A stretch of 49,558 nt of DNA, taken from the NCBI RefSeq assembly GCF_002252665.1, contig NZ_NQKZ01000014.1:1-49558 (forward strand). Reading direction: 5' to 3'. Positions 14,104 through 49,132 of the stretch are shown here, piece by piece. The DNA comes from Synechococcus sp. 8F6 (GTDB taxonomy: Bacteria > Cyanobacteriota > Cyanobacteriia > PCC-6307 > Cyanobiaceae). Positions within the stretch are counted from its first letter, which is position 1, and each line of letters starts with the position of its first letter. Both the position numbers and the translations under genes were made by a program. The notes beneath the pieces were generated by a model, which searched no databases, was not told the origin of the DNA, and saw nothing but the letters and a program-made list of their open reading frames with translations.

Positions 14104-17100
14104 ATGAGTCTGCTGCACGCCACCTGGCTGTTTCCCCCCGAGGGTTCGGGTGGCCGCCTGTTTCTGTGGGCTGACACCTGGCGTGTGGCCACCCCCGCCG
14201 TGCCCAAGCTCGAGGCCCCCGAGCACCCGCTGGCCCTCAACGAAGACGACCTGGCCACCTGGCTCGACGACAACGGCCTCTGGACCGAGGCCCTGCGTCC
14301 GGCCCGGGCCACCCTGAGCCTGCCCAGCCGCAGCCAGGCCGCCAAGGGCCGCCGCACCAGCGCCAGCAGCTGGAGCGGCCTGCCGCTCCAGGCCGGTGAG
14401 CCGATCCCCAAGCAGCTGGAGTGGTGGCCCTGGCAGGTGGAGGGCTGGGCTCTGGATTCGGCCAATGCGGGCGAATGGCTGAGCCAGCTGCCCCTGGCCG
14501 GCGAGCACCCGGAGATGGCCGATGAGCTGCGCTGGTGGAGCCACCTGCAGCGCTGGGCCCTGAGCCTGATTGCCCGGGGCCGCTGGCTGCCCCAGATCGA
14601 CGAGGGCAAGGCCCGCTGGCTGCCGCTGCTCAACCGGGAAGACGACCGCCGCCGCCTGGAAGACCTGGCTAGCGGCCTGCCCCAGGTGGCCACCTGCGCC
14701 CTGGCCGCCGGGCCGATGGGCGATCCGGCCTTGGCTTGCCGGCGCCCAGGCAGCGGCCGGCTGCGGGTGGCCAGCCTGCTGGAGGCGCTGCTCGACGGCC
14801 AGCTGCGGGCGGGCTTCAGCCCCAGCGCCGAAGGCCTCGATCCGCTGCTGGCGGCCTGGCAGAAGGCCCTGGGCAAGGGCGACGGCAGCCTCAACCTGGG
14901 CGAGGAGGAGCTCGAGCGCCTCAGCATCGCCACCCACCACTGGCGCGAGGGCGTGGCGGGCAAGGTGGAGCCGGCCCGCACCTGCCTGGAGCTGTTCACC
15001 CCCGCCGAAGGCGAGGAGCTCTGGGAGCTGCGCTTCGGCTTGCAGGCCGAGGCCGACCCGAGCCTGCGGGTGCCGGCCGCCGCCGTGTGGGCCGCCGGTG
15101 ATCGGGGCCTGCAGATGGGCGAGATCGCTGTGCCCCAGCCCAGCGAGCTGCTGCTGGAGGGCATGGGCCGGGCCTTAACGGTGTTTGAACCGATCCAGCG
15201 GGGCCTGGATTCGGCCACCCCCGAGGCGATGCAGCTCACCCCGGCCGAGGCCTTCGTGCTGGTGCGCACCGGCGCGGCGCAGCTGCGGGACGTGGGCGTG
15301 GGCGTGGTGCTGCCCGCCAGCCTCTCCGGCGGCCTGGCGAGCCGGCTGGGCTTGTCGATCACGGCCGAGTTGCCGAAGAAATCGCGCGGCTTCACCCTGG
15401 GCGAATCGCTCAGCTTCAGCTGGGAATTCATGATCGGTGGGGTCACCCTCACCCTGCGTGACCTGGAGCGCCTGCAGGCCAAGCGCAGCCCGCTGGTGCA
15501 GCACAAGGGCGCCTGGATCGAGCTGCGCCCCGCCGACCTGCGCAACGCCGAGCGGTTCTGCGGCGCCGATCCAGGCCTCAGCCTCGACGATGCCCTGCGG
15601 CTCACCGCCAGCGACGGCGACACCTTCCACCGGCTGCCGGTGCACCGCTTCGACGCCGGTCCGCGGCTGCAGGCGGTGCTGGAGCAGTACCACCAGCAGA
15701 AGGCCCCCGATCCCCTGCCCGCACCGCCGGGCTTCTCCGGGCAATTGCGGCCCTACCAGGAGCGGGGCCTGGGCTGGCTGGCCTTCCTGCACCGCTTCGA
15801 CCAGGGCGCCTGCCTGGCCGACGACATGGGCCTGGGCAAGACGATCCAGCTGCTGGCCTTCCTGCAGCACCTCAAGGCCGAAGAGGAACTGAAGCGGCCG
15901 GTGCTGCTGGTAGCGCCCACCTCGGTGCTCACCAACTGGAAGCGGGAGGCCCACGGCTTCACGCCGGAGCTCTCGGTGCGGGAGCACTACGGCCCGCGCC
16001 GGCCGTCCAGCCCCGAAGCCCTCAAAAAAGCCCTCAAGGGCGTCGATCTGGTGCTCACCAGCTATGGCCTGCTGCAACGCGACAGCGAACTGCTGGAGAG
16101 CGTCGACTGGCAGGGGATGGTGATCGACGAGGCCCAGGCGATCAAGAACCCCAGCGCCAAGCAGAGCCAGGCGGCCCGCGACCTGGCACGCCCCGGCCGG
16201 CTCAGCAAAGGCGGCAGCCGCTTCCGGATCGCCCTGACCGGCACGCCGGTGGAAAACCGCGTCAGCGAGCTGTGGGCGCTGATGGACTTCCTCAACCCCA
16301 AGGTGCTGGGCGACGAGCCCTTCTTCCGCCAGCGCTACCGGCTGCCGATCGAGCGCTACGGCGACATGGCCTCGATGCGCGACCTCAAAGCCCGCGTCGG
16401 GCCCTTCATCCTGCGGCGCCTCAAAACCGATAAGTCGATCATTTCCGACCTGCCGGAGAAGGTGGAGCTGCACGAGTGGGTGGGCCTGGCCCCCGAGCAG
16501 AAGAAGCTCTACAACCGCACCGTCGACGAGAGCCTCGACGCCATCGCCCGCGCGCCCCTGGGCCAGAAGCACGGCCAGGTGCTGGCCCTGCTCACCAAGC
16601 TCAAGCAGATCTGCAACCACCCGGCCCTGGCGCTCAAGGAAGACGCCGACGCCGTGCTCGCCGCCGGCAACGGCAACTTCAGCAGCCGCAGCGCCAAGCT
16701 GCAGCGGCTCGAGGAAATCCTCGAAGAGGTGATCGAAGCGGGCGACCGGGCGTTGCTGTTCACCCAGTTCGCCGAATGGGGCCTGCTGCTCCAGGCCCAC
16801 CTGCAACGCAAGTGGCGCCAGGAGGTGCCGTTCCTGTATGGCAGCACCAGCAAAACCGAACGCCAGGCGATGGTCGACCGCTTCCAGGACGACCCCCGCG
16901 GCCCCCAGCTGTTTCTGCTGTCCCTCAAGGCCGGTGGCGTCGGCCTCAACCTCACCCGCGCCAGCCACGTGTTCCACATCGACCGCTGGTGGAACCCGGC
17001 CGTGGAAAACCAGGCCACCGACCGCGCCTACCGCATCGGCCAGCAGAACCGGGTGCTGGTGCACAAGTTCATCACCAGCGGCTCGGTGGAGGAGAAGATC

Positions 17101-17220
17101 GACCGCATGATCCAGGAGAAGTCGAAGCTGGCCGAGGAGATCGTCGGCTCCGGCGAAGACTGGCTCGGCGGCCTCGATGTGGGCCAGCTCAAAGACCTGG
17201 TCAGCCTCAGTGAGGAGTAA
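14104..17220 (+). CDS. SNF2-family DNA helicase/ATPase
   Basis: This is a large (1038-residue) SWI2/SNF2-type ATPase. The N-terminal half (about 1-540) is the SNF2-associated region found in the bacterial HepA-like group. The ATP-binding lobe begins near 545 with [18 protein letters not shown], Walker [11 protein letters not shown] at about 573-582, and motif [11 protein letters not shown] near 675. Motif III is [10 protein letters not shown]. The C-terminal lobe has [17 protein letters not shown] and [19 protein letters not shown] (motifs V and VI). Such proteins translocate on double-stranded DNA and remodel DNA-protein complexes. A SWIM zinc-finger gene that often lies directly downstream is here displaced by about 3.8 kb of AT-rich DNA. 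Confidence 0.93.
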
Positions 17221-17269
17221 GAGAGGCCTCGGCAAGCAACGCAGGGGACGATTCCACCAGCAACAGGTT

Positions 17270-18205
17270 ATGCAGAAACAGCATAATTCCCGAGGATGCC
17301 ATGTGATAAATTGGACAAGTCGGGCCACCCGACTACAAACCCAACAGCACAAAGTGGCAACTAAAAATTTCGCACAATGCGCTATTGGGCGTGCAGCCTT
17401 GCAAGCGCTTACCGCGAGCGCATTCATTTTTCTTGGGAGCGCCAGCGCAGAGTCACTCAACATAGGGAAGGGCGAAGTTGAGCGATCTATAGCCACAAGA
17501 AGCCAGCCCCCTGTCTCAATAGCGGTGAGAAAAATCACCAATATGGCTGGACAATACGCCGAAGATGGACGAGATGCCGAAGGAAATCTAGTCGGCTGGT
17601 TTAAGCCATCTTACCAAATAAGATTAGCCGAGATTCTGGCAACAGAGCTTTCAAATACCGGCCATTTTACGGTTGTCGAAAGAGACAAGCTTTATGCCGT
17701 ACTAGAAGAGCAGGCCCTCACAGAGGTCAATCCACGGACCGCGGCCAAAAAGGGGAATATAACGGGAGCCAAATATATTATTCTTGCGTCGCTTAGTGAT
17801 TTTGTTCCAAACGTAAATCGCACGCGAAAAAATCAAGACGGACGCGTGCTTATTTTTGCCTTTGGGAACGACAGAGAGAACGTCGAAACCTATGTTGCAT
17901 TTGATCTTAGAGTTATTGATACTACTACCGGAGAAATAGCAATAAGCAGAACGATTGAGGGCACGTCCCAATCCACCCACAAAGCAGACCGATTCGGCAT
18001 GTCATTCGGTTTCTGGGGAGGCGGTGCATCTGAAAATCAAACATCAGAAACAACACCAGCCTCCCGAGCCGTTCGAGCAGCGATGATTAACATTGTTGAA
18101 TATCTAAATTGCTCCCTTTATCTGAAAGACAGCTGTCTCAGCACCTACAAGGCTATGGATGAGAAAAGAAAGATGAATACCAAGGGAACACTGAATTTAT
18201 TTTAA
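17270..18205 (+). CDS. Exported CsgG-family protein (cassette gene 1)
   Basis: CsgG-family proteins form outer-membrane secretion pores for curli, or lie in the periplasm as related LpoB-like factors. Signatures here are PVSIAVRKITNMAGQ, LSNTGHFTVVERDKLYAVLEEQ, GAKYIILASLSDF and YVAFDLRVIDTTTGEIAISRTIEG. A hydrophobic segment ending FLGSASAES gives a signal-peptidase I site; there is no lipobox, unlike E. coli CsgG. The C-terminus carries CSLYLKDSC, a C-X7-C pair shared with the next two genes. From ATG 17270 the product is 311 residues; GTG 17354 would give a cleaner 33-residue signal peptide. DNA is much more AT-rich than the upstream helicase, suggesting transfer. The next gene lies 30 bp downstream. 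Confidence 0.8.
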   Translation: MQKQHNSRGCHVINWTSRATRLQTQQHKVATKNFAQCAIGRAALQALTASAFIFLGSASAESLNIGKGEVERSIATRSQPPVSIAVRKITNMAGQYAEDGRDAEGNLVGWFKPSYQIRLAEILATELSNTGHFTVVERDKLYAVLEEQALTEVNPRTAAKKGNITGAKYIILASLSDFVPNVNRTRKNQDGRVLIFAFGNDRENVETYVAFDLRVIDTTTGEIAISRTIEGTSQSTHKADRFGMSFGFWGGGASENQTSETTPASRAVRAAMINIVEYLNCSLYLKDSCLSTYKAMDEKRKMNTKGTLNLF

Positions 18206-18235
18206 TCCAAACAAACCATACTTGCTATAGTTCTC

Positions 18236-19174
18236 ATGAAAATCAAACCAACTACTCTCACGGTTACCTCTGCAGGCGCAATCATTATCCTCTTGGCGCT
18301 TTCAGGACGATCCGCAGCCAATCAATCCAAAAACCCAGAAAGCTCATCCATATTAAATATCTCTTTGAAAGAGGCAAGATCTCGCATTCTCAAGGATCGT
18401 CCATACAAGATTGATCGCAATGAAAAAGTTAAGGATGTCGAGGTTTATATCAAGCCATTTAGCCTCAAAACAGAAGATGTACCTGATTGGTGGTCGGAAA
18501 AGCAAAGTTATGATCTTGCTAAACTGCTAGAAGAAGCCATGGGATATTATCCAGGGGTAACAATCATTAGAGGAAACTCCTGGGAGGAGAAGACAGTATC
18601 TGAAGAGCTTGGACAGTCATACAATACTGAAAATAATGTCCGAAATCCAAGCCTTGTCAGAGGAGAGCCCACAAATGCTCTGACAATACAACCAGTCGTC
18701 ACCAACTACACATTTCAGGCGTTCAAGCCAAAGAAACGCGGGCTCGGGCTTGTGTTTATTGCAATTACAAACAAATCTTGCAAAACAGAAAGTTTTCTCT
18801 CAACACAAACGGAATTACTGTCTAGCACAAAGGCAATAAGTGGTTCACAGCCACAAGCATCAGCTCCTGACTCGTTTGATCGCAGCTTCACTGCAAGCAT
18901 GGTCCGCACGACAGAAACTGGAGGCACCAGCTTAAATGTCAATGCTCTATTCGCTGGCGCTGGGGGAGGTGATTTTAAACCCCCAGAAAAAGCCACTCGT
19001 GAATTAATATATGACACGGTCGCAGATATTGCCGAAGGCTCCTTTTGCATGTTAAGCGGCAATCAAGATTGTATTTCTTATTACCTTAAAAGAGTACAGC
19101 CCAAGCCAACACCGCCTCAAAAAGACAAGAAGGGGAAAATAATTAAGCCTAAGCCAGAGGAGTTAAAATGCTAA
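18236..19174 (+). CDS. Exported protein, probable diverged CsgG relative (cassette gene 2)
   Basis: This 312-residue secreted protein starts with Met-Lys-Ile-Lys, a hydrophobic core and a cleavage site near GRSAANQ. By eye it follows the same order as its neighbours: VEVYIKPFSLKTEDVPDWW resembles the first CsgG strand, LAKLLEEAMGYYPGVTIIRGN matches the conserved helix and strand (VVER in the others), and near the end CMLSGNQDC has the same C-X7-C spacing, preceded by a helix. The central GARY-IL and DTTTGEI motifs are missing. The C-terminal tail is Lys/Pro-rich. It is probably a degenerate or specialised paralogue; homology is inferred, not proven. Confidence 0.6.
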   Translation: MKIKPTTLTVTSAGAIIILLALSGRSAANQSKNPESSSILNISLKEARSRILKDRPYKIDRNEKVKDVEVYIKPFSLKTEDVPDWWSEKQSYDLAKLLEEAMGYYPGVTIIRGNSWEEKTVSEELGQSYNTENNVRNPSLVRGEPTNALTIQPVVTNYTFQAFKPKKRGLGLVFIAITNKSCKTESFLSTQTELLSSTKAISGSQPQASAPDSFDRSFTASMVRTTETGGTSLNVNALFAGAGGGDFKPPEKATRELIYDTVADIAEGSFCMLSGNQDCISYYLKRVQPKPTPPQKDKKGKIIKPKPEELKC

Positions 19175-19214
19175 TCCATATCAATTTGACTGAGCCCCCA
19201 AAATCTTTTTAATC

Positions 19215-20012
19215 ATGGCTTTTCTCTCTATTTTCCGCTCCTCTGCATCACAACTTACAGCAACCTTGGGTGTGCTTGCATTCTGCTCTCCTCCATCACT
19301 AGCCTATCCATCGATTGCTCAATCTGGACTGGGAAATCGAAGGCCGGTCACTATTGCTGTAAAAGAAATCACTAATACTGTTCCAGGCTTGCCATGGTGG
19401 AATGCATCTACGAGTAGAACTTTAACAACGATGCTTTCCAATGAATTGCAAAGCAGTGGTCATTTTACAGTTGTTGAGCGGCAAGGAATGCGACAAGTAC
19501 TAGATGAGCAGGAGCTTGTAGATGCAGGGATCGTTCGGCCTGCGACTGGACCAAGCAAGGGCATGATGACAGGAGCAAGATATTATATTCTTGGCAGCAT
19601 TAGTGATTATCAGCAAAATGTTGAAACTTCTTCTAGAAGCTCCGGCAGTTCTTTTTTAATTGGCGATAGCTCTAGCAATAGTGGGCAACAGAAAAGCTAT
19701 GTCGCTATAGATATCCGTGTGGTTGATACAACAACAGGGGAAATTGCCTATTCCCGATCAATCGAGGGGACTTCTTCTAATTCCCAACAATCAAAAGGCT
19801 CCTCACTCGGAGTTTCAGGCTTGCTGGGACGATCAACAAGTGAATCTACAACCTCTCGAACACCCGCTTCACGCGCTATTAGAGGAGCCATGATTCAAGT
19901 CGCCGAATATCTTGATTGCGTACTTTATTTGAAAAATGGCTGCCTAGCGGCATATAGTGCTCGCGAAAACATGAGGCGTGAGCGCACAAAAGATGTTCTC
20001 GAACTTTATTAA
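19215..20012 (+). CDS. Exported CsgG-family protein (cassette gene 3)
   Basis: This 265-residue CsgG-family protein has signatures PVTIAVKEITNTV, LQSSGHFTVVERQGMRQVLDEQ, GARYYILGSISDYQQ and YVAIDIRVVDTTTGEIAYSRSIEG. The signal peptide ends near SPPSLAYPS; Cys24 inside it is not in a good lipobox. A Ser/Asn-rich loop (RSSGSSFLIGDSSSNSG) replaces part of the strand pair that forms the transmembrane hairpin in E. coli CsgG, so a pore is not certain. The C-terminus has CVLYLKNGC (C-X7-C). It is clearly paralogous to cassette gene 1. Its last 20 nt overlap the start of cassette gene 4. Confidence 0.82.
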   Translation: MAFLSIFRSSASQLTATLGVLAFCSPPSLAYPSIAQSGLGNRRPVTIAVKEITNTVPGLPWWNASTSRTLTTMLSNELQSSGHFTVVERQGMRQVLDEQELVDAGIVRPATGPSKGMMTGARYYILGSISDYQQNVETSSRSSGSSFLIGDSSSNSGQQKSYVAIDIRVVDTTTGEIAYSRSIEGTSSNSQQSKGSSLGVSGLLGRSTSESTTSRTPASRAIRGAMIQVAEYLDCVLYLKNGCLAAYSARENMRRERTKDVLELY

Positions 20013-20970
20013 ATCTCGGCTTCCGTCTGTCTTGCTGGCGCTCAAGGCTGCCGTAATTAGCTGTTACTACATTTCAGCAACTGCTGTTTTCCCAGCCAAA
20101 GCGGGCAATTTAGTCGAAGGAAAATGTGGCATTCTAGAAACTGGTGCATATTTCACAAAATGCACACTCCTAAAATCTGGAAATCTAATTTCTGCTTTAA
20201 CCAACAATGGTTCAAATTTAATTTTGAATGCAAGCCGCTCAGAGATATTGCGAATTGGTCCCTTGAGCGATGAGGTAAGCAATCTCTCCCCAGAATCCAG
20301 CAAGGGGCTGGGCATCGTTCTTGCAGGTCTTTCAACATCTAAAACTGATGCAGAGAAATCTAATAATGTTAGGATTATATCCTTCATTAAAGATTTCAAT
20401 ACAAGACAAAGTTTTATCTTTATTGCAGACAGACGTCAGGAAAATACTAACAACTTAAGCTTTGTCGCTCCCTATGTAGCGACTCTCAATACCTCTAGCA
20501 CCTCAACCCCTGAGCTGCCCCCCTCAGACGCTTCTGCCTACCTCGAAGAATACGATAGAGCTTTCAATAGAATTCAAGGCCTTTACGACTCTCTTATGTT
20601 TGAAGAGGCAGACCGAGTATTGGACAGAACTATTGCGAGCATTAACAACTTTTCCAAACGCTACTCTGGCTATCAAGGGGCTTTCGAAATCCAAACATTT
20701 CTAAATTCCAGAATCGCTCAGGCCGAATCACTAAGAAGCCTTAAATCCTATGAATACCAACAGGCGCAATGGCAAGCAGAGATGCGATATGCGAGAATCC
20801 AGAAAGAAAAAGCTGACGCAGAAGAGCGGCAAAGACAGCATCAATATAGGCTGGCGGTCGAAAGAAGAAAGACTGCGGAAGCCAACGCCCGACAATGGCT
20901 CGCAATCTGGCTATTGGTGCGCCCACCAAGCGTGAACGTCATCAACAACACAACTGTGATTACACGCTAG
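19993..20970 (+). CDS. Exported coiled-coil protein (cassette gene 4)
   Basis: From ATG 19993 the product is 325 residues. A long hydrophobic N-terminus (SVLLALKAAVISCYYISATAVF) ends at PAKAGN, a likely cleavage site. The first domain contains CGILETGAYFTKC and strand-rich segments. The second half, from about SDASAYLEEYDRAF, is helical, with a Gln/Lys/Glu/Arg coiled coil (KADAEERQRQHQYRLAVERRK broken over about 50 residues), then a hydrophobic stretch WLAIWLLV and a short tail NVINNTTVITR. No known domain is recognised. It overlaps gene 3 by 20 nt, so the two are made together. It might be the cargo, a periplasmic partner or a scaffold for the CsgG-like proteins. Confidence 0.65.
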   Translation: MFSNFIKSRLPSVLLALKAAVISCYYISATAVFPAKAGNLVEGKCGILETGAYFTKCTLLKSGNLISALTNNGSNLILNASRSEILRIGPLSDEVSNLSPESSKGLGIVLAGLSTSKTDAEKSNNVRIISFIKDFNTRQSFIFIADRRQENTNNLSFVAPYVATLNTSSTSTPELPPSDASAYLEEYDRAFNRIQGLYDSLMFEEADRVLDRTIASINNFSKRYSGYQGAFEIQTFLNSRIAQAESLRSLKSYEYQQAQWQAEMRYARIQKEKADAEERQRQHQYRLAVERRKTAEANARQWLAIWLLVRPPSVNVINNTTVITR

Positions 20971-21068
20971 TCCTGAACTCAATATTGGCTTCGCAGCAGC
21001 ACCTGCGTAATTTCAGATTTTTGTAGTTTCTGCATTGACCTAAGCTGATTGGTAGTGGCTTGCTGAGG

Positions 21069-21965
21069 ATGACATCTTCCCCCCACACCACCATCAACAC
21101 CCAGCTCGGCGACCAGGGCCTGGCCCAGCAGCCCTGGTGGGTGGAGCAGTGGATGGAGCTGATCAACTCCTACCGCTACAAGAAGCGGCTGGAGCGCGCC
21201 TGGGAGTACGCCCGCTCCAGCAATGTCACCTCGATCCGCTTCGAGGGCCGGCGGGTGCATGCCCGGGTGCAGGGCACCGGCGAGGAGCCCTACAAGGTGA
21301 AGCTCTGGCTCGACGTGCTCAACGACGACGACTGGGGCTACGTGCTCGATGCCCTCACCCAGAAGGCCCGCTGGTCGGCCCAGCTGCTGGCCGGCGTCAT
21401 GCCCCAGGACATCGAGCGCGCCTTCGCCGCCAGCGGCAAGCGCCTGTTCCCGTTCAAGTTGCAGGAGGTGCGCAGCGAGTGCAGCTGCCCCGACAAGGCC
21501 AACCCCTGCAAGCACGTCAGCGCTGTGTACTACCTGATGGGCGATCGCTTCAGCGAAGACCCCTTTGTGCTGTTCCAGATGCGCGGCCGCACCCGGGCCC
21601 AGCTGCTGGCCGACCTGGCCAAACGGCGGCGCAGGGCGTTGGCGAAACAGGCCAGGCAGGCTGCAGCCGCCAAGGGCTCGCAGCCGGTCGCCGAGGCCGT
21701 TCCGCACCCGGTGCATGCCGCCATCAAGGACCCGAGCCGCTGGTGGCGCTACGGCGCAGCCCTGGATTCGGATCTGGTGGTGATCACCCCGGCCCTGGAA
21801 GGCGACACGGGCCTCGATGCCGCCGGCCCCCTGCCCCTGGCCGAAGAGCCCCGCTTCCCCGAGGCCAATCTCCACTTCCTGGAGCACCTCAAGGCCCACG
21901 GCCAGCAGATCGCCGCCCTGGCCATGGCCAAGGCGATGGGCCCCGTCAACGGTGATGACGGCTGA
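21069..21965 (+). CDS. SWIM zinc-finger domain protein
   Basis: The protein has 298 residues from ATG 21069 (an upstream TTG at 21060 is the alternative). The SWIM signature CSCPDKANPCKHVSAVYYLM has the C-X-C-Xn-C-X-H metal pattern around residues 138-155. N-terminal WWVEQWMELINSYRYKKRLERAWEYAR is typical of cyanobacterial SWIM proteins found beside SNF2 helicases. SWIM domains bind DNA or proteins, and a partnership with the helicase at 14104-17220 is likely. The low-GC cassette now separates the two. The MEKHLA gene overlaps its 3' end by 11 nt. Confidence 0.88.
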   Translation: MTSSPHTTINTQLGDQGLAQQPWWVEQWMELINSYRYKKRLERAWEYARSSNVTSIRFEGRRVHARVQGTGEEPYKVKLWLDVLNDDDWGYVLDALTQKARWSAQLLAGVMPQDIERAFAASGKRLFPFKLQEVRSECSCPDKANPCKHVSAVYYLMGDRFSEDPFVLFQMRGRTRAQLLADLAKRRRRALAKQARQAAAAKGSQPVAEAVPHPVHAAIKDPSRWWRYGAALDSDLVVITPALEGDTGLDAAGPLPLAEEPRFPEANLHFLEHLKAHGQQIAALAMAKAMGPVNGDDG

Positions 21966-41593: not shown

Positions 41594-42415
41594 GTGAGTC
41601 CGGTACGCGGGATCCCCACCTCGAGGGCCTACTGGGAGCTCAAGGCCGAACAGATGCTTAACCGCGTGTTTGAGCCGGAAAACCCGATCGAGGTTAAGGT
41701 CTGCGACGCCCCCAACATCCCCCTCGAGCCAAGGGATCTGACGACCCCACCGAAGCCAGGCCCAACCACGCAAGCAAACCCTCGATTCCGAAGCTGGATC
41801 GACCAGCTCGGCCACCAGCCGAGTTGGTTGCTGGCCGGAGCCAGCGTCACGGGGATGCTGATGGCCGGGATGGCCCTAGTCGTGTTGGGAGTGTGGAACC
41901 ACAGCCAGCAAGCAATCCGCCAGGAACGCACCATGCTGCTGATCGAGCGGCTGCGAGCCATAGGACCCGGCACCACGGCCGCCGCTGAAACTGCCACCCA
42001 GGCAGAAGCCACAAAGCCAACGCACCAGGATGGCGAGCTGCCACCGCCGCCGCCGGGTGGCGGCGAACCCTGGATGGAAGAACTGGCCACCCTGCCCGCG
42101 AGCCACGCCCCCGCGGCCTCCATGCTCCAGGTGCCTATCAACAGCTGGATCACCAGCCCCGCTCCAGCCGCGACAGGCGACGCAAGCAGCTCCAGCGGCG
42201 GAGGCGGTGGAAGCGCACCCCAACTGGTGGGCGTGGTGCAGGTGCCCGGCCAGAGCGGGTCGGCCATCTTTCAACTCGGCGGTAGCTCCACCAGCGCCGC
42301 CGTGGGCGAAAGCATCGGCAGCAGCGGCTGGCGCCTGCGCTCAGCCAGTGGCGACAGTGCTTTGATCGAGAAGGGCGGCGAACAGCGGAGGGTGAGTATC
42401 AGCAATGGTTATTGA
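41594..42415 (+). CDS. Membrane protein with PilP/GspC-like C-terminal domain
   Basis: This 273-residue protein starts at GTG 41594, 13 bp after mnmG. A single transmembrane segment (WLLAGASVTGMLMAGMALVVLGVW) lies near residues 78-102, followed by a Thr/Ala/Pro/Ser/Gly-rich linker (PPPPPGGGEP; SSSSGGGGGS). The last 60 residues, QLVGVVQVPGQSGSAIFQLGG to GWRLRSASGDSALIEKGGEQRRVSI, resemble the HR/PilP fold of type IV pilus and type II secretion inner-membrane proteins. A pilus or secretion role is inferred. The stop codon overlaps a TTG start of the first island gene, at the point where composition turns AT-rich. Confidence 0.6.
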   Translation: MSPVRGIPTSRAYWELKAEQMLNRVFEPENPIEVKVCDAPNIPLEPRDLTTPPKPGPTTQANPRFRSWIDQLGHQPSWLLAGASVTGMLMAGMALVVLGVWNHSQQAIRQERTMLLIERLRAIGPGTTAAAETATQAEATKPTHQDGELPPPPPGGGEPWMEELATLPASHAPAASMLQVPINSWITSPAPAATGDASSSSGGGGGSAPQLVGVVQVPGQSGSAIFQLGGSSTSAAVGESIGSSGWRLRSASGDSALIEKGGEQRRVSISNGY

Positions 42416-43632
42416 TCGACCAAGCAGTGGATCACAGCCGACATCACTCAACCAAAGTGCATGCACAGTCGCAACAACATAGGCAAAAGCAAAAAGGGGA
42501 ACCCCAGACAGCAGTGAAAACAAAAGCAACGAATAAAAATCAATCAGGCAGCCGGGCAAGGTTCGCACAACGATTCCTAAACCTGCTCTGCGGCAAAACG
42601 GCCAAACCCTATTACAACGAAAACACATTCTTCGTGTGGGAACCTTGCTCGAGATCCCACGCAGAGGTCGTTCCGGGCTACTGCAAACTCCTGCTCGATA
42701 CCGGATACGACGTATCGGTACTCATTGAGCCTAAGCGGATCGACGAAGGGCTTTTCTGCAACTTTACACACGAAAGGCTGCATATCAACCGGCTATCAAA
42801 AAGAGCCACACAGAAATTCTTCAAAGAAAATGGGTTGGCCTCTTCATCAGGCATCCTCGTGACGACGGTGGGCAAACTCACTCCCAACGCCGACTACGAT
42901 CATGCGAGTGGACTATTTGCTCCACTCAACCAAAACCAACGGGTTCTTCTAGTCGAGCACGACATCAAAAATGGTGCAGACCTCGGCACGCTAACAAGTG
43001 ATATCATCACACTGCGGGAAACAGACTACAAGAACTCAATTACAACGCCAGTCAATCCTCACTATTTTGGGGAGTTAGGGGAGCATCAAAAAGAAGCGCG
43101 CACAATCTTTGCAACAGTTGGCGCAATCAGAGATAAACGCAGAAACAGCGATCTGCTGATCAGCGCCGTTGAGGGGCTTCATCAAAAGGGAGTCAGCAAC
43201 TTTAGCGTTCTCGTCATCGGCAAAAATAATCCCAGCGCCATTCCCAGACATTTGCAGCAGTATTTCCTCCACTTAGGCCGCTTAACATTCCAGGAACTCT
43301 ACGAGCAAATGCAATGCTGTGATTTTCTTCTGCCATTGCTTGACCCGAACAACCCAAGCCACAGACGCTACATCACAACCGGCACCAGCGGCACATTTCA
43401 ATTGGCACTTGGCTTTCACAAGCCAGTGATATTAGAACAGTCATTTGCGCCCATCAATAAACTCAACGAGAGCAATTCAGTCATCTACGACGGCAACAGC
43501 GATTTCCTCATCGCAATGGAAAAAGCCATTATGATGACACCAGATCACTACGACTCGCTTCAAAAAGCTGTTGCCGAAACAGCCAGGTCAATCTATGCTG
43601 AGTCACTTGAGAATCTAAAGAGTCTGATATGA
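42412..43632 (+). CDS. GT-B-like glycosyltransferase
   Basis: The frame encodes up to 406 residues from TTG 42412; GTG 42514 (with AGGGGA upstream) would drop a 34-residue Gln/His/Lys-rich leader. The body looks like a two-lobed GT-B transferase: FFVWEPCSRSHAEVVPGYCKLLLDTGYDVSVL at the start, a central TIFATVGAIRDKRRNSDLLISA, VLVIGKN, and TTGTSGTFQLALGFHKPVILEQ, which matches the nucleotide-sugar end of the second lobe. Donor and acceptor are unknown. It overlaps the next gene by 4 nt (ATGA). DNA is distinctly AT-richer than the preceding gene. Confidence 0.6.
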   Translation: MIDQAVDHSRHHSTKVHAQSQQHRQKQKGEPQTAVKTKATNKNQSGSRARFAQRFLNLLCGKTAKPYYNENTFFVWEPCSRSHAEVVPGYCKLLLDTGYDVSVLIEPKRIDEGLFCNFTHERLHINRLSKRATQKFFKENGLASSSGILVTTVGKLTPNADYDHASGLFAPLNQNQRVLLVEHDIKNGADLGTLTSDIITLRETDYKNSITTPVNPHYFGELGEHQKEARTIFATVGAIRDKRRNSDLLISAVEGLHQKGVSNFSVLVIGKNNPSAIPRHLQQYFLHLGRLTFQELYEQMQCCDFLLPLLDPNNPSHRRYITTGTSGTFQLALGFHKPVILEQSFAPINKLNESNSVIYDGNSDFLIAMEKAIMMTPDHYDSLQKAVAETARSIYAESLENLKSLI

Positions 43633-44558
43633 GCACAACAACAGTCCCTATCGTCTTTGCATTTGACAGGCGCGTCTTACGTCCAGCCGCTGTCGCGATC
43701 AGGAGTCTTATCGATGCAGCACAGAAAGACACAACCTATCAGATTCATATATTACACCCCGGATTTAGCACAAAGATAAACGCAGCTTTCGCTGACATTG
43801 CCAAGGAAACTCGCCACACAGTCGTTTTTCATAAAATCGACAATAACCGGTTTAAGGGGCTTCCATCAGGGGGCGGAAGCTGGACCGAGGTCGTCTATTA
43901 TCGATTTTTAATCCCCGAGCTACTCACTAAATGCGATCGCGCCATTTATTCAGATATTGACGTCTACTTCAAGGGCGATTTGTCGTCTTTGATGGATATA
44001 GACATGAAGGGCGCTCCAATTGGAGCAGTCATTGGCGAAGTGAATAGCCCTGCGATGAAATGCCACAACCACTTCCCCGAAAACAACTCTAAATATGTAT
44101 ACATGTCGGGCTTCTTGCTCATGGACTTGAGCAAGATGCGCAGAGAAACACTCACCGAAAGACTCTTAAATACCGCAAAGAGGTATGGCAAAAGACTTAA
44201 GATGTTCGACTTAGACGCACTAAATCTGACCTGCAGCCACATTCATTCGCTGCCATTTGAATATTGCGTATTAGAGACGGTTTACGAGGAGCAGTCAGTC
44301 CGGAGCGCTCCTGAATTCTCATGGCTGTCAGATCATTACTCAATCGACGACCTTGAAGGTGCCAAGATCAATACTAAGATTATTCATTATGCAGGCCCAC
44401 TAGGAAAGCCTTGGCGGAGAGCAAATCAACCCAGCTACTACAAACAGGCGCTGAGTTGTGTTCCAGCAACTCTGAATAGGAAAACATGGCGGGACATTCG
44501 CAAGTACTGGAGTAGCCGACTCGCCAACATGGTTCGCGGCGAGCGAACTCTAAGATAG
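43629..44558 (+). CDS. GT8-family glycosyltransferase (LgtC-like)
   Basis: This 309-residue GT8 member uses a UDP-hexose, typically transferring Gal or Glc with retention. VPIVFAFDRRVLRPAAVAIRSLID is the family start. CDRAIYSDIDVYFKGDLSSL contains the D-x-D metal motif (DID). YMSGFLLMDLSKMR and FDLDALNLTC match the central GT8 pattern, and IIHYAGPLGKPWRR is the C-terminal motif. A basic tail (RKYWSSRLANMVRGERTLR) could touch the membrane. It overlaps the upstream GT by 4 nt and is followed by the GT10 gene after 32 bp. Confidence 0.9.
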   Translation: MSTTTVPIVFAFDRRVLRPAAVAIRSLIDAAQKDTTYQIHILHPGFSTKINAAFADIAKETRHTVVFHKIDNNRFKGLPSGGGSWTEVVYYRFLIPELLTKCDRAIYSDIDVYFKGDLSSLMDIDMKGAPIGAVIGEVNSPAMKCHNHFPENNSKYVYMSGFLLMDLSKMRRETLTERLLNTAKRYGKRLKMFDLDALNLTCSHIHSLPFEYCVLETVYEEQSVRSAPEFSWLSDHYSIDDLEGAKINTKIIHYAGPLGKPWRRANQPSYYKQALSCVPATLNRKTWRDIRKYWSSRLANMVRGERTLR

Positions 44559-44590
44559 CCTCTTGCAATTAACAACAATTGAGATAATCC

Positions 44591-45604
44591 ATGAAATGGA
44601 ATTTTGGACAAGTCGCAATTGATCGACTGAGAGGCAAGCGGACATCGGCAACGACCATTTCCAAGCCATACAAAAGAATATATCTTCCTGTCTACAATAG
44701 CAACCATAATCTTAATTCCGAAGAGCCCTCTATCTTTAATGAAGAAGGCCAGACAATGCGCACTTTTTTTCTGCGGGATGCCCAATGGGCACACCACCCA
44801 AGCTACATGCAGTCGAAGTATTTTATCTGGGACCGCTACAATATAGGTCTAAATACCCACTTCTATACCCACAATGCAATGCTGGAGACAATGGGGACTC
44901 CAGCAAGACGCTACGGTATACTTTGGGAATCAGAAGCTTTAGTCCCAAAAGACTACACTCTATTTGCCCGCCACAAGAGCCTAGCGGAAGAGTTTAATTT
45001 TATTTTTACGTTCAGCGAAGATATTCTTGAGGCTGTACCAAATGCCCGCTTTTTTCCGGGGTGTGCCAGCGCCTGGTATGGCAACAAGATTGGTGGCGGC
45101 ATGCTTTCAAATACAGCCTATCTTAGAAAAACAAAAGGCATTTCTATACTGTCATCTGCAAAATTTCAAACTAGATTCCACAAGTTTCGGCTTGAACTCG
45201 CCAGAAAGCTCAAGGAGAATGACCATGTTGATACCTATGGCACGTTTGATGGCGGAACACAAGTTCAGCTAAGTGAAACGTTGACGGATTACCGTTTTTC
45301 ATTCGCCATTGAGAACGATCTTAAGCCTTTATTCTTTACAGAGCGGCTAACAAGTTGCTTTGCCGCAATGACAATTCCGATTTATTTAGGAGCCAGCAAG
45401 ATTGATCAGTTTTTCAATCCAGATGGGATCATCCAGTTAAAAGCATCTGACTTGGATGACATTGAAAAAATCATCCAATTATGCACACCTGCAGAATATG
45501 AACGACGGCTTCCTGCTATTGTGGACAACTATAACCGCGTAAAGCCTTTCCTCAATGCGAATGATTGGTTGTACGAAAACTATTTCAAACAAAACGGGGA
45601 TTAA
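44591..45604 (+). CDS. GT10-family fucosyltransferase (alpha-1,3/1,4 type)
   Basis: GT10 enzymes add fucose from GDP-fucose to GlcNAc in alpha-1,3 or alpha-1,4 linkage. The 337-residue product has the donor-binding signature YRFSFAIENDLKPLFFTERL then CFAAMTIPIYLGA, and FFNPDGIIQL. Upstream, GILWESEALVPKDY and FIFTFSEDIL suit the first lobe. No signal peptide is seen. ATG 44591 is used, 32 bp after the GT8 gene. With a GT11 gene in the same island, a doubly fucosylated glycan is possible. Linkage is inferred from family membership. Confidence 0.85.
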   Translation: MKWNFGQVAIDRLRGKRTSATTISKPYKRIYLPVYNSNHNLNSEEPSIFNEEGQTMRTFFLRDAQWAHHPSYMQSKYFIWDRYNIGLNTHFYTHNAMLETMGTPARRYGILWESEALVPKDYTLFARHKSLAEEFNFIFTFSEDILEAVPNARFFPGCASAWYGNKIGGGMLSNTAYLRKTKGISILSSAKFQTRFHKFRLELARKLKENDHVDTYGTFDGGTQVQLSETLTDYRFSFAIENDLKPLFFTERLTSCFAAMTIPIYLGASKIDQFFNPDGIIQLKASDLDDIEKIIQLCTPAEYERRLPAIVDNYNRVKPFLNANDWLYENYFKQNGD

Positions 45605-45681
45605 TGGCAAATCCAAGTGATCTATCCTACGAGAAATAGTCCACAAGATTGGTCCCGGTAAACCTTCTTAGCTACAGATCA

Positions 45682-46644
45682 ATGACCAACAAAACTATGG
45701 ATGCTCTTGACATCCTCAGCGGTTTCCTCCGCTCCAATGCTCTCAGAAGGGCGCTTTCAGAGGGCTTCTGCTTTGAATCAATTGATGATGAGCGGTTGGC
45801 TAATCAGAAGATTATCTCACAACGGCCCAAGTTGGCTCGAGAGACAATAAGTCTTGTTCATTCATCAAGGACATCTCTGCAAGAGAATGTTCAATATCTT
45901 CACGAGCGCATCCTCGCGGCGATGGCAATGCGCGAGGCTTTGCCTATTATTAGATTTGCTGACGGCGAATATGCATTTTATTCGCTAAGTCTGGCTTGCA
46001 ATGGTCTCTACAAGCAAGCCAGAAGTCGACGAGAGATTCAGGCTGTGCTGGCGAAACACATCCATGCCCTTGAATATGTGCAGACAAAAGGCTTTATAGC
46101 TCCGCTAATCTTCCCGGGCAATCTACAGTTCCATCCATCACTAAAAAAAATTTTGGGGCTTAAAGAAAAGCCTGGTTCGGCTCTTTCTTTTATACGCTTG
46201 TTGTCCTCACACGGTATTCGTCTTACGCCGGATCATTATGTTCCATTTTATGCGATCTATGCTTATCTCACTTCTAACACATTTTTGAGCGCTTGTGGAG
46301 GCAAGAATATCTGCATACTGAACTCTGACCTTAACATGAAGCTTGCTAATGAGTGGTTTAATAAAGGTGGCAGCGGAGCGCGGATCAGTTCGGTTTGCAT
46401 ACCCTCAGAGTATGTGGCTACAAGTTGGCAGCACTACAAAAATGATATACTTTTGCAAATCCCCAGAGAGACAGATATCTGTCTTGTTGGAGCAGGGATC
46501 GGATCCCTCGAAGTCTGCGCTGATATCAGCCAGTCTTTCTCCATTCCAGCTATTGATGCTGGTCATGTCATAAATATGATTAATAGTAGAGTCGATAAGT
46601 CTGCGGGTGCCCGCCTCTTCACAGAGTGGAAACAGAATGCTTGA
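45682..46644 (+). CDS. GT-D-fold glycosyltransferase-like protein
   Basis: From ATG 45682 the product has 320 residues (the frame opens at 45649). LPIIRFADGEYAFYSLSL matches the RFGDGE-type signature of GT-D-fold transferases (the fold first described in DUF1792 proteins), with Asp-Gly-Glu as the likely metal or donor site. The C-terminal CLVGAGIGSLEVCADI and PAIDAGHVINMINSR fit the end of that domain. N-terminal helices (about 1-75) are not recognised. It lies between the two fucosyltransferases, and its last 8 nt overlap the GT11 start. It probably adds one sugar of the same glycan. Confidence 0.65.
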   Translation: MTNKTMDALDILSGFLRSNALRRALSEGFCFESIDDERLANQKIISQRPKLARETISLVHSSRTSLQENVQYLHERILAAMAMREALPIIRFADGEYAFYSLSLACNGLYKQARSRREIQAVLAKHIHALEYVQTKGFIAPLIFPGNLQFHPSLKKILGLKEKPGSALSFIRLLSSHGIRLTPDHYVPFYAIYAYLTSNTFLSACGGKNICILNSDLNMKLANEWFNKGGSGARISSVCIPSEYVATSWQHYKNDILLQIPRETDICLVGAGIGSLEVCADISQSFSIPAIDAGHVINMINSRVDKSAGARLFTEWKQNA

Positions 46645-47452
46645 AAAGGGGGTGTATGTCTGCCTAGAAGGTGGTCTTGGCAATCAACTGTTTATGTATG
46701 CAGCTGGGAAGGCCTTGGCTTATCGAAATAACACCAAGTTATTCATAGACACTGAATCTGGATTTCGAGATGATTTAAGGTATCAGCGCAATTACTCGCT
46801 CGACATTTTTGATGTCAATTTTCAGCACTTCCAAATGTGCAACTTTGAGGATACAAGAGTAAAGAGGCTAATTAACAAGTTCGGGCCAATGCAATATCGG
46901 AATGTACTCTTGGAAAAGAAGGTCAAGAGCCTACAGAATGTTCATGTAAACAAAGCCATTGAACTTAGGGGATATTGGCAATCAGAAGATCACTTTAAAG
47001 GCCAATGGAAGCATTTATCAAGTGAACTTGAATACGCAATACATCTATCAGTTGAATCGGCAAGGATCTTAGAGAAAATTCATTCCTCTAAAACGTCAGT
47101 TGCTGTTCATTTCCGCACAGTAGATTATCGCCATGTTCTTCCAGCCGATTATTACTCGAGAGCCTTTGAATATCTAAATAACCATTTTTCAGGAGCTCAT
47201 TACATGATATTTGCGGATAGCCCTAAGGGCATTAACCCAGAGCCGTTCTCAGGCTTGAATCATACGGTTGTACGTACCGACGATCACCGCGAGGACTTCT
47301 TCCTGATGAGCAGCTGCAGCCATCAGATCCTTGCAAACAGCACATATAGCTGGTGGGCTGCATACCTTAATAAAAATTCCGACAAAAAAATCTTGGCTCC
47401 CAGGAGATGGGGATTCAAAATTGAGACTCCGCCCTCATGGCAGCTAGTTTAA
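46637..47452 (+). CDS. GT11-family fucosyltransferase (alpha-1,2 type)
   Basis: GT11 enzymes typically add fucose to galactose in alpha-1,2 linkage from GDP-fucose. The 271-residue product has the N-terminal signature CLEGGLGNQLFMYAAGKALAY, ELRGYWQSEDHF, a motif I variant VAVHFRTVDYRHV (most family members have HxRRGDY), and SSCSHQILANSTYSWWAAYL, the conserved C-terminal NSTFSWW-type segment. The change of RGD to TVD could affect catalysis, but the first Arg is kept. ATG 46637 overlaps the upstream stop. It is the last gene of the island before the insertion sequences. Confidence 0.9.
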   Translation: MLEKGVYVCLEGGLGNQLFMYAAGKALAYRNNTKLFIDTESGFRDDLRYQRNYSLDIFDVNFQHFQMCNFEDTRVKRLINKFGPMQYRNVLLEKKVKSLQNVHVNKAIELRGYWQSEDHFKGQWKHLSSELEYAIHLSVESARILEKIHSSKTSVAVHFRTVDYRHVLPADYYSRAFEYLNNHFSGAHYMIFADSPKGINPEPFSGLNHTVVRTDDHREDFFLMSSCSHQILANSTYSWWAAYLNKNSDKKILAPRRWGFKIETPPSWQLV

Positions 47453-47744: not shown

Positions 47745-48560
47745 TCAGCGGATGGTTGCTGCCGCCTTCTTGGCTGGATCAGCTTCGGTGAGCTCCAGCG
47801 GCTCTTCCGGCTCCGGGATCTTGGCCATGGTGGCCTCGGAGAAGAAGCGCCGACGCTCCAGCTGCCATTCCTCCTGCTGCTCCAGCAGCTGGCTGCCCAC
47901 CAACCGCACGATCGCAGCGTCGTTGGGGAAGATCCCGACCACGTTGGTGCGGCGTTTGATTTCCTTGTTGAGCCGCTCAAGCGGGTTGGTGCTCCAGACC
48001 TTGCGCCAGTGCTCCTGGGGGAAGTGCAAGAAGGCCAACACGTCATCGCGAGCGGCGTCCATTACCGGCACAGCGCCGGGAAACTGCTTGCGCAGCATCT
48101 CGGTGACCCGCTGCCAGTGGGAGCGCACTTGCTCAGGGGCCTGGATGACGAACACGGCCTTCATGGCGGCGGCCACCATGTCCTGGCCGGCCTTGGGGAC
48201 GTGAGACAGCAGGTTGCGTAAGAAGTGCACCCGGCAGCGCTGCCAGCTACTGCCCTGGAACATCCGCCTGATCGCTGCCGTCAGCCCCAGGTGCGCATCT
48301 GAGATCACCAGCCGATTTCCAGTCAGGCCACGCTCTTTGAGGGAACTGAGGAACTGGCGCCAGAAGCCCTCAGCCTCGCTGTCACCCACGGCAATGCCGA
48401 GCACCTCGCGGTAGCCGAGGGCATTGATGCCGATCGCTACCACCACGGCCCGCGAAACCACCTGCATGTTCTGCCCCAGACGGCCGTGGAGGTAGGTGGC
48501 ATCGAGGTAGACGTACGGGTAGCGGGCATGGTCCAACGGCCGGCACAGAAAGGCTTTCAC
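47745..48560 (-). pseudogene. IS256-family transposase, 5' part missing
   Basis: The 271-residue frame covers the catalytic and C-terminal parts of an IS256/Mutator-type DDE transposase. YVYLDATYLHGR has the first Asp, LVISDAHLGLTAAIRRMF the second, and WSTNPLERLNKEIKRRTNVVGIFP the conserved end region with the third acidic residue. Family members are near 400 residues, so about 130 N-terminal residues are absent. Homology stops at VKAFL, just where the IS3-family element begins, so the gene was interrupted by that insertion; the 5' piece probably lies beyond the right end of the window. GTG 48560 is only the first codon in the surviving frame. Confidence 0.85.
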
Positions 48561-48625
48561 CCCCCGGTTTCAGGAAAGATGTCACCCCTCTGATCAGTAC
48601 ACCTGGGGGCTTGAGGACATGACCA

Positions 48626-49132
48626 ATGCGTCGTTACAGCGAGGCCGTCAAGGCTGACGTGAGAAGGCGGATGAGCCCGCCGCACCGCCAGAGCGTGGCT
48701 CGGATTTCAGAAGAGCTGGGCATTCACGTGGTGACCCTCTACAACTGGAGAAAGATTTGGCGGTTACAGGGAGAGGTGGTGCCGGCTTCCGAGAAGGAAC
48801 CAGAGGGCTGGAGTGCTGCCGACAAATTCACGGTGGTGCTGGAGAGCGCTGGCCTGAATGCCACCGAACTCAGTGGCTACTGCCGGGAGCGGGGGCTGTT
48901 TCCTGAGCAGGTGGAGCGTTGGCGGCAGGCTGCCCAGGATGCCAACGCAAAGCCAGTGCTCACCTTGAAAGAGCAGAAGGAGCTCGAGAAGCTCCGCGCC
49001 CAGGACCAGCGGGAGATCAAGGCTCTCAAGAAAGAGCTACAGCGCAAGGAGAAGGCCATGGCGGAGATGGCGGCCTTGCTGGTGCTGCGAAAAAAGTGGG
49101 AAGCCTTCTGTTCGGAGGACGCGGAAGGCTGA
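48626..49132 (+). CDS. IS3-family transposase OrfA
   Basis: OrfA is the DNA-binding subunit of IS3-type elements. The 168-residue product has an HTH (RISEELGIHVVTLYNWRKIWR, shown across residues 26-46), a second HTH-like repeat (LNATELSGYCRERGLFPEQVERWR) and a leucine-zipper-like coiled coil rich in Glu/Lys/Leu (LEKLRAQDQREIKALKKEL) leading to AEMAALLVLRKKWEAF. The A6G slippery site at 49090-49096 lies 12 codons before the stop, so part of the ribosomes would shift to orfB and make the OrfAB transposase. Confidence 0.92.
   Translation: MRRYSEAVKADVRRRMSPPHRQSVARISEELGIHVVTLYNWRKIWRLQGEVVPASEKEPEGWSAADKFTVVLESAGLNATELSGYCRERGLFPEQVERWRQAAQDANAKPVLTLKEQKELEKLRAQDQREIKALKKELQRKEKAMAEMAALLVLRKKWEAFCSEDAEG
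49090..49130 (+). promoter_or_regulatory. Programmed -1 ribosomal frameshift signal
   Basis: The heptamer A-AAA-AAG (49090-49096) is in the correct phase of orfA (CGA AAA AAG). Five nt further, AGCCTTC (49102-49108) pairs with GAAGGCT (49124-49130) to form a 7-bp stem with a 15-nt loop, a standard stimulator. A -1 shift enters the frame of orfB (AAA AAA GTG), which is open to the window end. Confidence 0.85.

Follow-up and report, generated by a model that had tools for sequence, protein, structure and literature searches.

A four-gene insert in Synechococcus sp. 8F6 that may encode an outer-membrane-associated complex of CsgG-superfamily proteins

Results

The window, that is, the whole stretch of 49,558 nucleotides of Synechococcus sp. 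8F6 that was analysed, contains an AT-rich insert of 3.8 kb (17221..21059, no strand assigned), which runs from the stop codon of a SNF2 helicase gene (14104..17220, + strand) to the start codon of a SWIM zinc-finger gene (21060..21965, + strand), both flanks being identified by Pfam. According to the ORF list the insert is filled by four genes of the same strand, here called A to D. Gene A (17354..18205, +) encodes an exported CsgG-family protein, as judged from PF03783 and from its grouping with A-type CsgGs; gene B (18236..19174, +) an exported protein of predicted CsgG fold and fixed partner of A, on the basis of hhalign, a structural model and its position after A; gene C (19215..20012, +) a further exported CsgG-family protein (PF03783); and gene D (19993..20970, +) an exported protein with cysteine in its N-terminal part and, C-terminally, a long helix, as read from its ORF, model and relatives. 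The frame of A is open from 17177, with an ATG at 17270 and its stop at 18205, and the GTG at 17354 (283 aa) suits its signal peptide; D is taken to start at the ATG at 19993, its ORF being also open from a GTG at 19978. The spacing is 30 nt between A and B and 40 nt between B and C, and C and D overlap by 20 nt. The preliminary description of this DNA had reported four consecutive same-strand genes in AT-rich DNA, and both points hold: the + strand ORFs lie in that place, and their GC content is 0.44-0.47 (GC3 0.34-0.43) against 0.69-0.71 (GC3 0.92-0.93) in the two flanking genes.

The cassette looks like a foreign insert in a picocyanobacterial genome. None of A to D has a match at 15 SNF2/SWIM junctions from 14 same-genus relatives, hence the insert is missing there; another same-genus relative, G533, falls outside this count because it has no SWIM match. 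In one relative the equivalent junction is occupied by a nucleotidyltransferase pair. An inverted repeat (17270-17289 / 21016-21035) was considered for the ends of the insert and rejected, other repeat pairs in the region being equally good. As to tRNA-guided insertion, the window holds no tRNA gene; a tRNA is present in five of the nine source regions scanned (L045, L048, L049, L065 and L067). Scans for promoters and terminators returned 6 of each, against 5.8 and 3.5 (sd 2.1), respectively, in shuffled sequences.

Profile searches place A and C in the CsgG family, as had been proposed, with 111.7 bits (E 4e-32) and 128.1 bits (E 3.6e-37) against the Pfam cut-off of 20.8 bits for PF03783, and they are the only matches to it in the whole genome. 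An A/C profile run against the PDB matched the chains of E. coli CsgG and nothing else (best E 2e-12). The CsgG equivalog PRK15184 of NCBIfam gives 34.3 bits for C and 11.7 for A against a cut-off of 505, the HfaB equivalog matches C weakly (E 5.4e-5, 22.5 bits), far below its 300-bit cut-off, and both proteins stay below the 110.55-bit cut-off of the NCBIfam LpoB equivalog. In a tree built from 21 CsgGs of this group, with six sequences chosen by hand from the other CsgG family, A joins six A-type CsgGs from other genomes with support 99/98.

Some of these scores bear on whether a pore exists at all. A periplasmic scaffold lacking a pore, in which rings like those of FlgT or LpoB would encircle or activate some other machine of the envelope and D would be the strut, is conceivable yet rather unlikely. 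Consistent with it, C (35.8 bits) and A (23.6 bits) both exceed the 22.3-bit cut-off of LpoB (PF13036), C weakly resembles FlgT_M (18.8 bits, below the cut-off of 31.2), L045 and L067 have, close to the cassette, exported proteins with sub-threshold resemblance to FlgT_N/LPP20, and four Prochlorococcus CsgGs lack the first hairpin region. Against it, the PF03783 scores of A and C are far above those for LpoB and FlgT, and among the 21 CsgGs compared, 17 have a first loop of hairpin length and all 21 have a second loop. In the window A and C retain both loops (29 and 34 residues). The strand-like alternation of the two loops did not rise above that of shuffled sequences in 37 of 38 tests, one loop of A being the exception. 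Each of the four CsgGs without the first loop adjoins one that retains it, which hints at hetero-oligomers; it speaks against giving this much weight that, according to the tree, the loss was a single evolutionary event.

Gene B has no Pfam family at E<=1. Its alignment matches the CsgG alignment with a pairwise E of 5e-7 in hhalign, and its predicted structure matches CsgG (Foldseek E 1.6e-5, VIA Z 9.9). A search with the B profile also reached a CsgG gene in a different genome (E 3.2e-6) at a site inside the CsgG gene of L052; this match, in G041, was rejected as a B gene, being the CsgG gene itself, and was counted as evidence of homology. From profile comparison and predicted structure B is thus assigned to the CsgG superfamily, which bears out the earlier call of a distant relative. 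The assignment does not single out CsgG itself: several other families resemble B to within 1 Z unit, among them FlgT (Z 9.6), which together with the LPHT ring is tied with CsgG in VIA-align, a tie that agrees with the scaffold too, and PelC reaches Z 8.0.

Gene D, described earlier as belonging to no known family, indeed has no Pfam match at E<=1 and no family in the libraries scanned. In its predicted structure the helices alone are confident and well ordered, the N-terminal part lies mostly below pLDDT 40, and a fold search gave a best E of 0.12, with no recognisable fold. A PH-like fold guessed for the N-terminal part from its pattern was dropped, with no Pfam support and given the low pLDDT there, and profile comparison does not make D a relative of CsgG (E 0.2). 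The relatives of D differ strongly in length and N-terminus. Prochlorococcus D and the short D are weakly linked (hhalign E 0.003, probability 10%) when the shared window D is left out; the comparison of the two D-family alignments A4 and A5 was discarded as circular because both include it. A secretion channel with D as its cargo, in the way that CsgG exports CsgA, would accord with the export of D, its overlap with C and its variable length and N-terminus; it is nonetheless improbable, for D has no curlin repeat match and its conserved part is a long helix instead of a repeat, the modelled helices being well ordered.

By eye, A, B and C carry apparent signal peptides with plausible signal-peptidase I sites, as claimed for all four proteins; D has an AKA|GN site and a competing Cys24 in a lipobox-like context (VISC), and its signal class is ambiguous because its homologues do not retain this cysteine. 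The first cysteine of B is residue 182. No lipobox is present in A or C, in agreement with the view that they are not lipoproteins, nor in 20 of the 21 CsgGs checked from this group.

No curli genes had been seen beside the cassette, and the genome searches for curlin repeats and CsgF agree. Among the 14 cassette-related genomes none exceeds the cut-off for curlin repeats (PF07012; two at E 0.28 and 0.44) or for CsgF (PF10614; three at E 0.11-0.36), and in the window genome neither profile matches at E<=1, E. coli as positive control exceeding both cut-offs. The preliminary description went too far in treating a CsgG without curli and without a lipobox as a departure from the norm: the latter is usual in this group, and the former is not in itself unusual, since in a published survey only 171 of the 601 hits to PF03783 were linked with curli (PMC3521004).

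Recurrence of the cassette

B directly follows an A-type CsgG in all seven loci read, and in 14 genomes a CsgG cluster includes a gene of the D family. The window and three Prochlorococcus genomes have all four gene kinds together in a single cluster; Prochlorococcus marinus MIT 9107 is one carrier. The idea of one four-gene cassette holds for these, but A-B and C-D are also found apart; therefore the cassette is two modules, A-B and C-D. Three genomes count against the proposed complex: in G576 A and B occur with no D detected, in G093 no D-linked CsgG goes with D, and in G061 the CsgG is readable in two frames. An additional exported gene accompanies the cassette in Prochlorococcus, and among the genomes searched the B and D families are confined to this cyanobacterial family. 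These results refer to a first set of 20 regions, with genes read in L044-L050, L052, L053, L063 and part of L051 and with L054-L062 left out, and to a second of 12, in which L104 and L106-L108 were read, L105 served as a BLAST target only and L109-L115 were left out. Profiles A1 and A5-A8 were built partly from genomes later searched, so that recall there is partly by construction, and the scan of the genome collection for B relies on two short peptide patterns.

A survey of co-occurrence had been proposed, with homologues that never occur together named beforehand as the outcome against the claim; the homologues do co-occur elsewhere, and the conserved co-occurrence of the four gene kinds favours a separate, curli-less device of CsgG-fold proteins. 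A chance assembly of unrelated or decaying genes in an island, for which one could cite the island-like composition, the patchy presence and a remnant of D in G075, is exceedingly unlikely: each of the four genes has an open frame and conserved motifs, and the same families cluster in differing gene surroundings, a recurrence that already contradicts it. Nor are the second and fourth genes decayed fragments, B having a CsgG fold and D representing an intact conserved family.

The suggestion of a phage-defence-like device fared worse. An anti-phage or phage-derived origin could be read into the island-like insert, the nucleotidyltransferase pair at the junction of a relative, and a PHROG of unknown function that matches both C (E 5.4e-9) and A (E 7.4e-5), and CsgG is known in phages (PMC9004378). 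Yet it is very unlikely: PADLOC matches none of six proteins at E<=1, tblastn of C and of Prochlorococcus D returned no phage record, and the viral contigs yielded no confirmed relative of B or D.

Discussion

The cassette may be regarded, with about even confidence, as a block acquired by insertion whose genes encode a complex of CsgG-superfamily proteins associated with the outer membrane. Such a complex is probably undescribed, the literature searched containing no description of the cassette, and probably unrelated to curli fibres. A, B and C would assemble as one ring or several, lying against the inner face of the outer membrane; A and/or C might supply a barrel or else enclose a different barrel as a collar, and B might serve the ring of A as a specialised subunit. 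Through its long helix D could act as a periplasmic or surface partner, be it a cap, an anchor or an exported cargo. The likely work of the complex would be the export or anchoring of an envelope component, comparable to what HfaB or PelC does, and without curli.

A bolder reading, which is put forward tentatively and is itself rather doubtful, sees here an undescribed outer-membrane machine of picocyanobacteria, a hetero-oligomer of different CsgG-fold subunits, some with a barrel and others having lost it, served by the B and D families and by the further exported gene of Prochlorococcus. To my knowledge the solved CsgG channels are all homomeric, so a hetero-oligomeric machine of this fold, if true, would be the first of its kind. 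Much of the photosynthesis in the ocean is carried out by Prochlorococcus and Synechococcus, yet little is known about the way in which these organisms export surface material and anchor it. An envelope cassette that recurs, with a patchy distribution, and includes several subunits of CsgG fold offers concrete targets for deletion and allows hetero-oligomerisation of CsgG rings to be tested.

Among known systems, E. coli CsgG shares with the cassette the PF03783 domain of A and C, the fold predicted for B and the export signals; it differs in that the cassette has several dissimilar subunits in one cluster, the partners B and D, and no lipobox in A to C, and in that neither curlin repeats nor CsgF were detected with the cassette. 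The periplasmic rings of FlgT and of the Vibrio type are alike in the tied fold scores of B described above, and unlike in that the FlgT_M match of C stays below cut-off; as far as I know, flagella are not expected in these cyanobacteria. The CsgG/CsgF pairs of phages (PMC9004378) likewise have CsgG without CsgA and CsgB, although CsgF is present in them, and C matches only a PHROG profile, no phage record having been hit by tblastn. HfaB, the holdfast anchor of Caulobacter, is CsgG-like and works without the curli set (PMC6707917), and C matches it weakly; C remains far below the HfaB cut-off, however, and the cassette groups three CsgG-fold genes. Finally, PelC, which the model of B resembles, is a lipoprotein, unlike A to C, yet its ring on PelB (PMC12141448), a periplasmic ring seated on an outer-membrane barrel, is a possible architecture for the cassette.

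Layout and insertion site of the cassette

The four genes A (17354..18205), B (18236..19174), C (19215..20012) and D (19993..20970) occupy 17.2-20.97 kb of the + strand, with gaps of 30, 40 and -20 nt; given such small gaps, they likely form one transcription unit. The source genome measures 2.51 Mb, the window being a single contig of it. Cassette genes have a GC content of 0.44-0.47 (GC3 0.34-0.43), and the flanks are far GC-richer: an SNF2 helicase gene (14104..17220; GC 0.705, GC3 0.926) and a SWIM zinc-finger gene (21060..21965; 0.688 and 0.920), both typed by Pfam. A and C match PF03783, the CsgG family; for B and D, Pfam gives nothing at E<=1; and a genome search found no PF03783 protein beyond A and C.

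The SNF2/SWIM junction is visible in 14 of 15 same-genus relatives, making 15 junctions (two in G509), and none of A-D has a match at the relatives' junction loci (E<=1e-5). The two genes lie 10-51 nt apart at seven junctions, 154-161 nt at two and 736-760 nt at six. The one longer filling scanned (L120:735-1477; L118, L119, L123, L130 and L132 have similar ones of 736-760 nt) pairs a nucleotidyltransferase with a substrate-binding gene (PF08780, Polbeta); the junction thus takes varied inserts and looks like a hot spot for insertion. In G159, from another genus, part of a D gene lies at the edge of a contig, next to the same SWIM gene, hence D at this site is not exclusive to the window.

A second AT-rich stretch (42412-47452, GC 0.43-0.47), carrying GT8, GT10, GT11 and two weaker glycosyltransferase genes, looks like a surface-glycan island; transposase genes follow at 47748-49129.

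Recurrence of the gene pairs

B directly follows an A-type CsgG gene in all seven A-type loci read, namely the window, G093, G094, MIT 9107, AG-402-A08, AH-716-J09 and AG-449-J16. Fourteen genomes have a D-family gene within a CsgG cluster (the window's, G093, MIT 9107, AH-716-J09, AG-449-J16, G067, G041, G066, G436, G061, G519, G156, G169 and G552). MIT 9107 (G568, L066), AG-402-A08 (G576, L068) and AG-439-G12 (G094, L064) were each counted once. All four gene kinds come together in a single cluster in the window, MIT 9107, AH-716-J09 and AG-449-J16, the CsgG standing in for C in the latter three belonging to a clade other than that of window C.

Several arrangements count against a fixed four-gene unit: D with a CsgG and without A and B in nine of the 14 D-cluster genomes; A, B and D without a second CsgG in G093; cassette parts spread over three contigs in G094; and A and B with no D match in G576, a genome 86% complete.

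B was found in 3 of 201 family genomes (its own included) and, from 73 candidate stretches of the genome collection, in five loci, all Prochlorococcus. D was found by single-sequence search in 7 of 201 family genomes, its own and a 31-residue remnant counted, and by profile search in 5 of 339 phylum genomes, its own counted and all of the same family. The CsgG group of the cassette, delimited by my own cut of >180 bits, is present in 13 of 400 family genomes; the remaining matches, <155 bits, are mostly a second CsgG family and include the D-linked CsgG of G436.

Neither B nor D was confirmed in viral contigs, and tblastn of C and of Prochlorococcus D against phage records gave no match. One PHROG of unknown function is matched by C (E 5.4e-9) and A (7.4e-5), indicating that distant phage relatives exist.

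Affinities of B and D

In profile-profile comparison 200 columns of the B alignment matched CsgG at a pairwise E of 5e-7 (probability 92.5), two control comparisons giving E 0.23 and 0.32; a search of 14 genomes with the B profile gave six hits, five of them B genes and the sixth a CsgG gene (E 3.2e-6). An AlphaFold2 model from six sequences (mean pLDDT 59.6, pTM 0.65) had 20 Foldseek matches in the PDB at E<=0.001, headed by H. pylori HpaA (5.9e-6) and pre-pore CsgG (1.6e-5). VIA-align scored CsgG at Z 9.9 (194 residues, rmsd 4.8), tied with FlgT (9.6) and the LPHT ring (9.3). Membership of B is well supported at the level of the CsgG superfamily, without singling out a branch of it.

Window D has no match in Pfam, NCBIfam or PADLOC, and reaches E 0.06 and 0.10 at best against PHROGs. 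The Prochlorococcus-type D (~290 aa, five aligned) matches it over 172 columns (E 1.2e-7) and, like it, has the motif GKCG and a further Cys. A short D, the helical part alone, occurs in five same-family genomes (G061, G156, G169, G519, G552), with 28-36% identity to window D (three aligned); with window D left out, its match to Prochlorococcus D is weak (E 0.003). The D model (mean pLDDT 54, pTM 0.36) is confident chiefly in helices, the longest at 233-312, and found no fold match in the PDB (best E 0.12). In G075, a 61-codon remnant (L051:10025-10210) keeps only the D C-terminus, and this genome is not in the set with a PF03783 match, which hints that D decays where the CsgG has been lost. 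The CsgG gene of G061 is split over two frames (L048:10098-10724; second piece G061:C1:411973-412131), by either frameshift or sequencing error.

In seven of the loci read (L045, L049, L052, L053, L065, L066, L108) D is accompanied by an exported gene, E, and five of the seven proteins show by eye a lipobox-like Cys (L049 and L053 do not); L067 gave no match. E was found in 7 of 14 genomes searched; the window genome gave no match. Exported proteins near the cassette in two Prochlorococcus-type loci (L045:3314-7534, L067:10991-11863) have sub-threshold similarity to FlgT_N or LPP20 (best E 0.0017), FlgT itself combining a domain of this kind with one like CsgG. Small exported proteins beside the cassette in two genomes (L052:2893-3348, L108:9666-10073), with no Pfam family over cut-off, appear to share an NKCK motif.

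CsgG phylogeny and hairpin loops

In the tree of 27 CsgGs, window A clusters with six A-type proteins (support 99/98), window C is placed weakly with the short-D group (84/68), and a third clade (100/99) holds the D-linked CsgGs from Prochlorococcus-type loci. E. coli CsgG is described as a nonamer with a 36-strand barrel, four strands per subunit (PMC4551309). In window A and C both loops are long enough for a hairpin (29 and 34 residues). The first loop is cut to 3 residues in four CsgGs (the second copy of L049, L065, L066, L067), which are one clade (99/99), and is retained by another CsgG in each of those loci, by all 11 single-CsgG loci of the group, and by the CsgG on the third contig of G094. 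This pattern is consistent with a mixed ring whose subunits divide the work, but it reflects a single event in evolution. One loop of 38 showed more strand-like alternation than shuffled sequence (p<=0.05).

LpoB matches of A and C also exceed the cut-off, in favour of the main rival, a scaffold without a pore, which I hold to be possible and rather improbable. I read A, B and C as subunits of rings associated with the outer membrane; the preferred role of the complex, at about even chances, would be export or anchoring in the manner of HfaB or PelC.

Comparison with known systems

No description of the cassette was found among open-licence papers, mostly judged on title and abstract opening; the CsgG fold is known, and in that literature no account was found of the recurring gene set that includes families B and D. 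CsgG-family proteins without curli are reported to be common (PMC3521004), and also to be found in phages (PMC9004378). A and C have two nearly invariant C-terminal cysteines. The cyanobacterial protein sll1835, labelled csgG, has been catalogued in fractions of the periplasm, the outer and inner membranes and the thylakoid as well as in the extracellular fraction (PMC7880944), and a disulfide is reported as measured in it (PMC13214033); by analogy, this disulfide may be the same as the cysteine pair of A and C.
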